A stretch of 35,476 nt of DNA. Source: Clostridia bacterium (lineage in GTDB: Bacteria > Bacillota > Clostridia > TANB77 > CAG-508). The stretch spans positions 1 to 35,476 of the forward strand of contig JAFVBS010000026.1 of the NCBI GenBank assembly GCA_017479865.1. Direction: 5' to 3'. The notes beneath the pieces were generated by a model that was not told the DNA's origin, did not search any database, and saw only the letters and a list, made by a program, of their open reading frames with translations. Numbering within the stretch: the stretch's first letter is position 1; the number at the start of each line of letters is the position of its first letter. Positions 194-24,670 of the stretch are shown piece by piece. The position numbers and the translations under genes are program-made.

Positions 194-222
194 TTGATAA
201 ATTTATGAAAAGATGTTATACT
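194..222 (+). promoter_or_regulatory. Sigma-A type promoter ahead of the structured leader
   Basis: TTGATA (194-199) and TATACT (217-222) are separated by 17 bp, a near-consensus housekeeping promoter. Transcription would start near 229, about 28 nt before the structured element at 257-359. The transcript could be a free small RNA or the leader of the flavin reductase gene at 491. Confidence 0.6.
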
Positions 223-256
223 AATAATAGCTTAAGTGAAAATATCCTGTCATTTG

Positions 257-359
257 AGCAACACCAGATATGTGGTAGTGACACATATCTTTTTTTGTAT
301 CTAAAAACGGAGCAGGTAGTGACTGCTCTGAACTGAAAATCAGTTTTACTTGTGTTGTT
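257..359 (+). ncRNA. Candidate structured RNA: closing stem plus three hairpins, two with the same heptaloop
   Basis: An outer stem (257-264 with 352-359, 8 pairs, one G-U) encloses three hairpins. Hairpin 1 is a perfect 9-bp stem at 266-274/282-290. Hairpin 2 has 8 pairs (one G-U) at 308-315/323-330. Hairpin 3 has 6 pairs at 331-336/340-345 with an AAA loop. Hairpins 1 and 2 have unrelated stems but the identical loop GTAGTGA. Seven T follow hairpin 1 (290-296), so it could also act as a terminator. I do not recognise a known RNA family. This element, its promoter and the repeat at 434-475 are what the 348-bp gap between the 5S gene and the flavin reductase holds. Confidence 0.45.
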
Positions 360-433
360 TCTATTTGATTATTTTTGAATTTAATTAAAAATTTTTGAAA
401 TATATGATTTCCTTTTAAATAGAAATATATTAT

Positions 434-490: not shown

Positions 491-1063
491 TTGAGTAAAG
501 TTATTTGGAAGCCAGGAACTTTTATTTATCCATTACCAGTAGTAATGGTCTCTTGTGGAGATATGGAAAAAAGTAATATTATTACAGTTGCTTGGACAGG
601 TATTATTAATACAGACAAGCCAATGTGTTATATTTCTGTCCGCAAAGAAAGATATTCCCATGACATGATTGCCAACAGCAAAGAATTTGTTATTAACTTA
701 ACTAACGAAAAATTAGTATATGCAACCGACTGGTGTGGTGTCAAAACAGGAGCAAAAGTCGATAAATTTGGGGAAATGCATTTAACAAAAGAACCGGCTA
801 AATTTGTGAAATGCCCATTAATTAAAGAAAGTCCTGTATCAATTGAATGTAAAGTAAAAGAAATTCGTTCACTAGGTAGTCACGACATGTTTATAGCAGA
901 AATAGTTTCTATTGATGCGGATGAAAAATATATTGATGAAAAAGGTGCTTTTGATATTACAAGATGCAACTTAATTACTTATGCTAATGGAAAATATTTT
1001 ACTCTTGGAAAACAAGTTGGCAAGTTCGGCTATTCTGTGCAAAAAAAGAAAAAACATAGATAG
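491..1063 (+). CDS. Flavin reductase family protein
   Basis: A 190-residue protein of the flavin reductase-like, FMN-binding split-barrel family (flavoredoxin type). The N-terminal part matches the family layout, with the stretch around SCGDMEKSNIITVAW followed by the pattern ending in YSHDMI. Such proteins bind FMN and reduce flavin or act as electron carriers in the cytoplasm; the donor cannot be read from sequence. The start is TTG at 491, chosen because AAAGGAGAT lies just upstream and no ATG fits. The C-terminus is a short lysine-rich tail. It stands alone between the rRNA operon and the ribosomal protein block. Its leader carries a promoter, a structured RNA candidate and a tandem repeat. 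Confidence 0.85.
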   Translation: MSKVIWKPGTFIYPLPVVMVSCGDMEKSNIITVAWTGIINTDKPMCYISVRKERYSHDMIANSKEFVINLTNEKLVYATDWCGVKTGAKVDKFGEMHLTKEPAKFVKCPLIKESPVSIECKVKEIRSLGSHDMFIAEIVSIDADEKYIDEKGAFDITRCNLITYANGKYFTLGKQVGKFGYSVQKKKKHR

Positions 1064-24587: not shown

Positions 24588-24670
24588 GCCGATGTGGCGG
24601 AACTGGCAGACGCACTGGATTCAAAATCCAGCGGGAAACCATGTGGGTTCGAGTCCCACCATCGGTACCA
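24588..24670 (+). tRNA. tRNA-Leu (anticodon CAA)
   Basis: The acceptor stem GCCGATG (24588-24594) pairs with CATCGGT (24660-24666), followed by discriminator A and encoded CCA. The anticodon stem-loop GGATTCAAAATCC has CAA at the anticodon position. The long variable arm of a class II tRNA and the T-arm GGTTCGAGTCCC are present. It reads UUG codons. Confidence 0.95.

Follow-up and report, generated by a model that had tools for sequence, protein, structure and literature searches.

A solitary small RNA beside a 5S rRNA gene is probably what survives of a par-like type I toxin-antitoxin module in uncultured Clostridia

A short segment of the 35,476-nt Clostridia bacterium DNA analyzed here (the window, meaning the whole stretch) carries two hairpins that present the same 7-nt loop, GTAGTGA, on unrelated stems, which raises the question of what this pair of structures belongs to. 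The segment lies directly downstream of a 5S rRNA gene (Rfam RF00001, 27-143; a tRNA is located much further away at 24588-24667). Both hairpins were found as given in the preliminary description: hairpin 1 (AGATATGTG-GTAGTGA-CACATATCT, 266-290) is followed by seven T, and hairpin 2 (CGGAGCAG-GTAGTGA-CTGCTCTG, 308-330) includes one G-T pair in its stem. There are exactly two copies of the 9-mer GGTAGTGAC in the window, and a hairpin pair with an identical 7-nt loop no more than 80 nt apart occurs once in the window and in 0 of 100 first-order shuffles. A fold of -39.2 kcal/mol (z -4.3) was computed for the region 240-380.

A terminator scan of 140-520 returned exactly two sites, one per strand (0.0 expected in shuffles), at 266-290 on the plus strand followed by the T run and at 328-310 on the minus strand followed by CGTTTTTAGA. 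Both hairpins exist, yet not as parts of one folded RNA: they are intrinsic terminators on opposite strands, an orientation missed in the preliminary description. Hairpin 2 is part of a transcript arriving from the opposite side. The single structured RNA of 100-170 nt envisaged earlier is thereby ruled out, as hairpin 1 ends the plus-strand RNA and hairpin 2 lies on the minus strand. The good promoter noted upstream is present, and with hairpin 1 as plus-strand terminator it follows that an RNA should span ~229 to ~296 (transcription start inferred; single-sequence fold -21.5 kcal/mol), in keeping with the suggestion of a small RNA (sRNA) at this position. Because the genes are convergent and the identical loop is on one DNA strand, the two transcripts would carry complementary loops. 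The features of the locus are as follows.

194-222, plus strand: sRNA promoter, TTGATA-17-TATACT preceded by a TG element; relatives have TTGACA/TATACT in the same place.
229-296, plus strand: predicted antitoxin sRNA of ~69 nt, comprising 5' stem-loop, target-binding segment and terminator; based on promoter, terminator, fold and homologous RNAs of similar length in relatives.
230-259, plus strand: predicted 5' stem-loop of the sRNA, 230-239 paired with 250-259, as seen when the window RNA and many relatives are folded one by one.
243-265, plus strand: direct-repeat segment; it is complementary to the putative, lost cognate toxin mRNA at the Shine-Dalgarno sequence and start codon; minus-strand reading GGTGTTGCTCAAATGACAGGATA.
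266-296, plus strand: sRNA terminator with loop GTAGTGA at 275-281, the proposed kissing loop; based on the scan and on loop co-variation.
303-330, minus strand: terminator of the convergent toxin mRNA, loop TCACTAC (322-316), complementary to the sRNA loop; kept beside an intact toxin gene in relatives.
331-345, minus strand: small hairpin around the toxin stop codon; the same sequence spans the stop of intact toxin genes.
340-364, minus strand: remnant of the toxin gene 3' end, ~8 codons with a 1-nt deletion, from minus-strand translation against intact relatives.
491-1063, plus strand: flavin reductase-like gene outside the module (Pfam PF01613, 99.4 bits); no module lies upstream of it in relatives.

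The hairpin at 331-345 is the third, internal one noted previously. A distal 8-bp stem said to close the whole structure likewise exists as sequence, but its closing role was rejected, as its arms belong to opposite transcripts and the stem varies in relatives. One arm lies in the anti-ribosome-site segment of the sRNA and the other in the 3' end of the gene facing it, so that the stem could arise only if a transcript read through both. Within the toxin mRNA, this complementarity might bring the 3' end back onto the ribosome site, but it is not kept in all subgroups.

A DNA search of 30 genomes of the genus identified strong homologues in several. In most of them, the minus strand behind hairpin 2 has a promoter and a leader containing AAAGGAGG, followed by a short ORF (e.g., MNGYMLIWILLQKIEKLEEELSTYKKNNTEKN) that has a strong ribosome site and stops just ahead of hairpin 2, so that the convergent mRNA encodes a ~31-aa peptide (MNGYMLIWILLQKIEKLEEELNTYKKN). 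Relatives thus have convergent promoters for toxin mRNA and antitoxin RNA, of which the window keeps the antitoxin promoter only. Intact modules possess two one-way terminators whose stems are unrelated and which usually lie some 15-25 bp from each other. Inserts of ~130-150 nt with internal inverted repeats separate the terminators in L036 and L054, where the loops still match. Pairwise differences in the peptide genes fall mostly at third codon positions (1479/912/3610 for positions 1/2/3), which indicates that the ORF is coding. We regard the feature in the window as, very probably, one half of a type I toxin-antitoxin module akin to par, the other half having been lost.

The module relatives are uncultured Clostridia, mostly gut metagenome assemblies. 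The core peptide profile (A1) matched in 82 of 390 genomes and 20 of the 39 genera sampled, all within one family, at E 0.01 or better, with the tail of the list including weak hits. Applied to one sample of the class it gave matches in 0 of 391 genomes, a weak negative, as the few same-family members of this sample also had none. A broader profile found modules in genomes of the same family and, outside it, only two weak hits (E>0.005), while the sRNA-terminator pattern was seen in 0 of 55 from other families of the order. Searches of viral contigs, phages and plasmids with the peptides returned no match; hence no link to mobile elements was found.

What the peptide does is the point on which the strongest rival explanation turns. 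An amphipathic helix makes up half of the core peptide, MxxYMLIWILLQKIEKLEEELNTY, which is only mildly hydrophobic; its hydrophobic stretch of ~11 residues is short for a membrane toxin and counts against the toxin reading. No model in Pfam, NCBIfam or PADLOC covers it, and no Fst or other toxin family matched. These properties favor a convergent sRNA and micropeptide under the same RNA-RNA control, with the peptide acting as a regulator or membrane-associated factor and not as a toxin. We consider this unlikely: the length of the peptide, its patchy distribution, a leader that tends to fold onto the ribosome site, the presence of paralogues with distinct addresses and the repeated loss of the toxin with retention of the antitoxin (both described below) fit a toxin-antitoxin system better. 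The folding of 61 toxin leaders gave a mean z of -2.5 relative to shuffles and a paired probability of 0.66 for the Shine-Dalgarno sequence, with the MAFFT alignment too poor for pair counts.

Comparison between loci bears directly on what the loops are for. In the core group, the sRNA terminator stem GATATGTG is constant while the loops change, with words such as GTAGTGA, GTGAAGA, GTGATGA, GTAGAGA, GTGGAGA, GGAGA, GGTGAA, GTTAGAG and CTCTCT, among others. Across 66 loci with both terminators, the longest word shared by the two loops averaged 6.7 nt, whereas none of 2000 permutations exceeded 4.5; restricting the analysis to the 29 distinct loop pairs gave 5.8 against a permutation maximum of 4.4. 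An independent pass starting from the peptide genes found a shared word of at least 6 nt in 59 of 63 toxin loci (maximum 15 in 3000 permutations), and 30 of 34 distinct sRNA loops were matched (permutation maximum 10). Altogether, at least 29 different loop words are matched. One exception among the 63 loci, L062, had been mis-parsed and is matched in the 66-locus analysis. In L103 the nearest sRNA or terminator is mismatched and a matching second sRNA is on the other side of the toxin, L133 shares a word of only 4 nt, and L188 has a second toxin without a matching partner nearby. Loci with very different peptides (MSSYELIWRLIVLLLLSDHSNECQDRNKE, MTQPELILKLIEMLLTEKEKNNNLQSKLEENEKR, MNAFDIIFFLIVLLFGKNWGKDNSKW) retain the loop match with other stems and other words. 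Next to a core-type module at L176 lies another of this layout, whose peptide is MNAFDIIFFLIVLLFGKNWGKDNSKW and whose loop word is GTGGTT. Matched loops form duplexes of ~-7.6 kcal/mol, compared to -2.5 to +0.8 for unmatched ones.

The earlier proposal that the shared loop is a recognition element and the stems are structural is borne out, as the loops are kept as matched pairs and the sRNA terminator stem is near-invariant; conservation in related genomes, which had been put forward as the check, was thus found. A protein partner for the loops (a decoy RNA) gives way to another RNA as the most likely partner, given that within a locus the two terminator loops co-vary and stay complementary. 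When 22 antitoxin RNAs were folded to a consensus, only the terminator stem was recovered and the 5' stem-loop of the single folds was not; co-variation was slight because the terminator stem is nearly invariant.

Back-to-back terminators are common between convergent genes, and the pair in the window could in principle be two ordinary ones whose loops are alike through copying or recent descent. This reading is very improbable. The stems are unrelated and the loops match locus by locus across the full set of words, whereas copying would carry the stems along, and loop identity is higher within loci than between them. Furthermore, three loci (L055, L103 and L127) have two antitoxin RNAs with different addresses, and in L127 and L055 it is the sRNA nearest the toxin terminator that matches its loop.

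A second patch of complementarity lies in the 5' part of the sRNA, which in antisense closely reproduces the ribosome site and start codons of the cognate mRNA and therefore tracks the first residues of the peptide (MNGY, MTSF, MSGY). Duplexes between this part and the toxin leader averaged -28.7 kcal/mol for cognate and -16.4 kcal/mol for non-cognate combinations (59 loci; lowest of 5000 permuted means, -19.1 kcal/mol), a difference that is partly built in because the repeat could persist from recent duplication.

The window retains no more than the final 25 nt of the toxin ORF, having lost the promoter, the leader with its ribosome site and the start. The sRNA, both terminators and the start-region segment appear intact, and judging by the sequence the window copy appears to be an orphan antitoxin, the surviving half of its module. 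The core toxin profile had 0 matches in the genome of the window. The broader profile identified two intact modules there, both with other addresses:

G000:C18:20780-20866: intact divergent module L215, loops TGTCCG/TGTCCG.
G000:C24:88904-88984: intact divergent module L216, loops AATAGCAGAT/AATAGCAGAT.

Pairing of the window RNA with these two resident toxins is weak (-11 and -13 kcal/mol); it pairs well with MTGY-type leaders of other species, reaching -34.4 kcal/mol in the duplex with that of L073. A pattern search revealed a second orphan antitoxin in the same genome (L002, G000:C28:10215-10243, loop TGACG), where the toxin terminator is retained (loops TTTGACGG and CTGACGAAA) and the toxin gene is absent. 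Further orphan antitoxins are L014, L028, L129, L138, L152 and L157. With the toxin lost in L014, L028, L129, L138 and L157, an unrelated neighbor gene now ends at the old toxin terminator, and the 3' end of its mRNA would bear the kissing loop. L135 has a decayed toxin ORF and a terminator loop that has drifted to GTAAAGA, against GTAGAGA for the sRNA loop; such drift is what a pair no longer under selection should show.

The previously proposed role as a regulatory leader of the flavin reductase gene is scarcely credible, as is a riboswitch, although the position upstream on the same strand would suit either: four relatives (L202, L205, L207 and L209) have the same junction of 5S rRNA and flavin reductase genes without the module, which therefore comes and goes, elsewhere it is flanked by unrelated genes with no conserved flavin reductase association found, Rfam searches of the window and intact relatives gave nothing relevant (matches to Clostridium-PBP and n00280 were low-scoring and far under the cut-offs), and a strong terminator ends the RNA ~195 nt before the gene.

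Returning to the toxin-antitoxin module, we infer a regulation in which both RNAs are expressed and a toxic peptide is held in check. In an intact module, the toxin mRNA (~200 nt) and the antitoxin sRNA would be transcribed toward each other, each ending at its own terminator before overlapping, such that the predicted transcripts have in common two short, separated complementary patches. The terminator loops (here GUAGUGA with UCACUAC) would make the first kissing contact, after which pairing would spread to the 5' part of the antitoxin, which would cover the toxin mRNA at its Shine-Dalgarno sequence and start codon and so block translation. Loop word and start-region repeat may together form the address that separates co-resident modules. 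With its toxin deleted down to the last codons, the solitary antitoxin of the window could neutralize an incoming module of the same address, or it may be decaying.

The closest parallel is par of the Enterococcus plasmid pAD1 (Fst / RNA I-RNA II), an experimentally worked-out type I toxin-antitoxin system in which a toxin mRNA (~230 nt) and a short antitoxin RNA are convergent, kissing of complementary terminator loops starts the contact, repeats pair over the toxin ribosome site and start codon, and the leader folds onto the Shine-Dalgarno sequence (PMC7472228). The new modules share the convergent RNAs, the complementary terminator loops and the repeats directed at the Shine-Dalgarno sequence and start codon. 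In contrast to par, where one bidirectional terminator serves both RNAs and the loops are automatically complementary for that reason, they have two separate terminators with unrelated stems and loops matched by co-variation. Their peptides lack the PXXXG motif of Fst and match no Fst, Ldr or other family model. The module would work like par, but with neither the shared bidirectional terminator nor an Fst-type toxin found, it falls outside the Fst family. Type I modules of Clostridioides difficile (e.g., CD0956.2-RCd10) also pair a small toxin gene with a convergent antisense RNA on the chromosome (PMC6563280); these have long overlapping antisense regions and toxins of 50-53 aa, whereas the new predicted transcripts end before overlapping.

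No description of split-terminator modules was found in the open-access papers searched, and this group of RNA-controlled peptide modules appears to be undescribed so far. A broader possibility, which we offer tentatively and hold to be less probable than the reading of the locus itself, is that these are family-wide peptide modules with a co-evolving, interchangeable kissing-loop address, that many orthogonal modules coexist in one genome, and that solitary antitoxins such as that of the window confer RNA immunity against incoming modules with a matching address. With two terminators in place of the single one of par, the loops are free to evolve, and the many matched words amount to a natural covariation experiment. 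This makes it possible to test directly what terminator-loop kissing does in par-type regulation and what keeps co-resident modules specific. The solitary antitoxins, whose protective role is so far our proposal, would offer a clean test of RNA-based anti-addiction.
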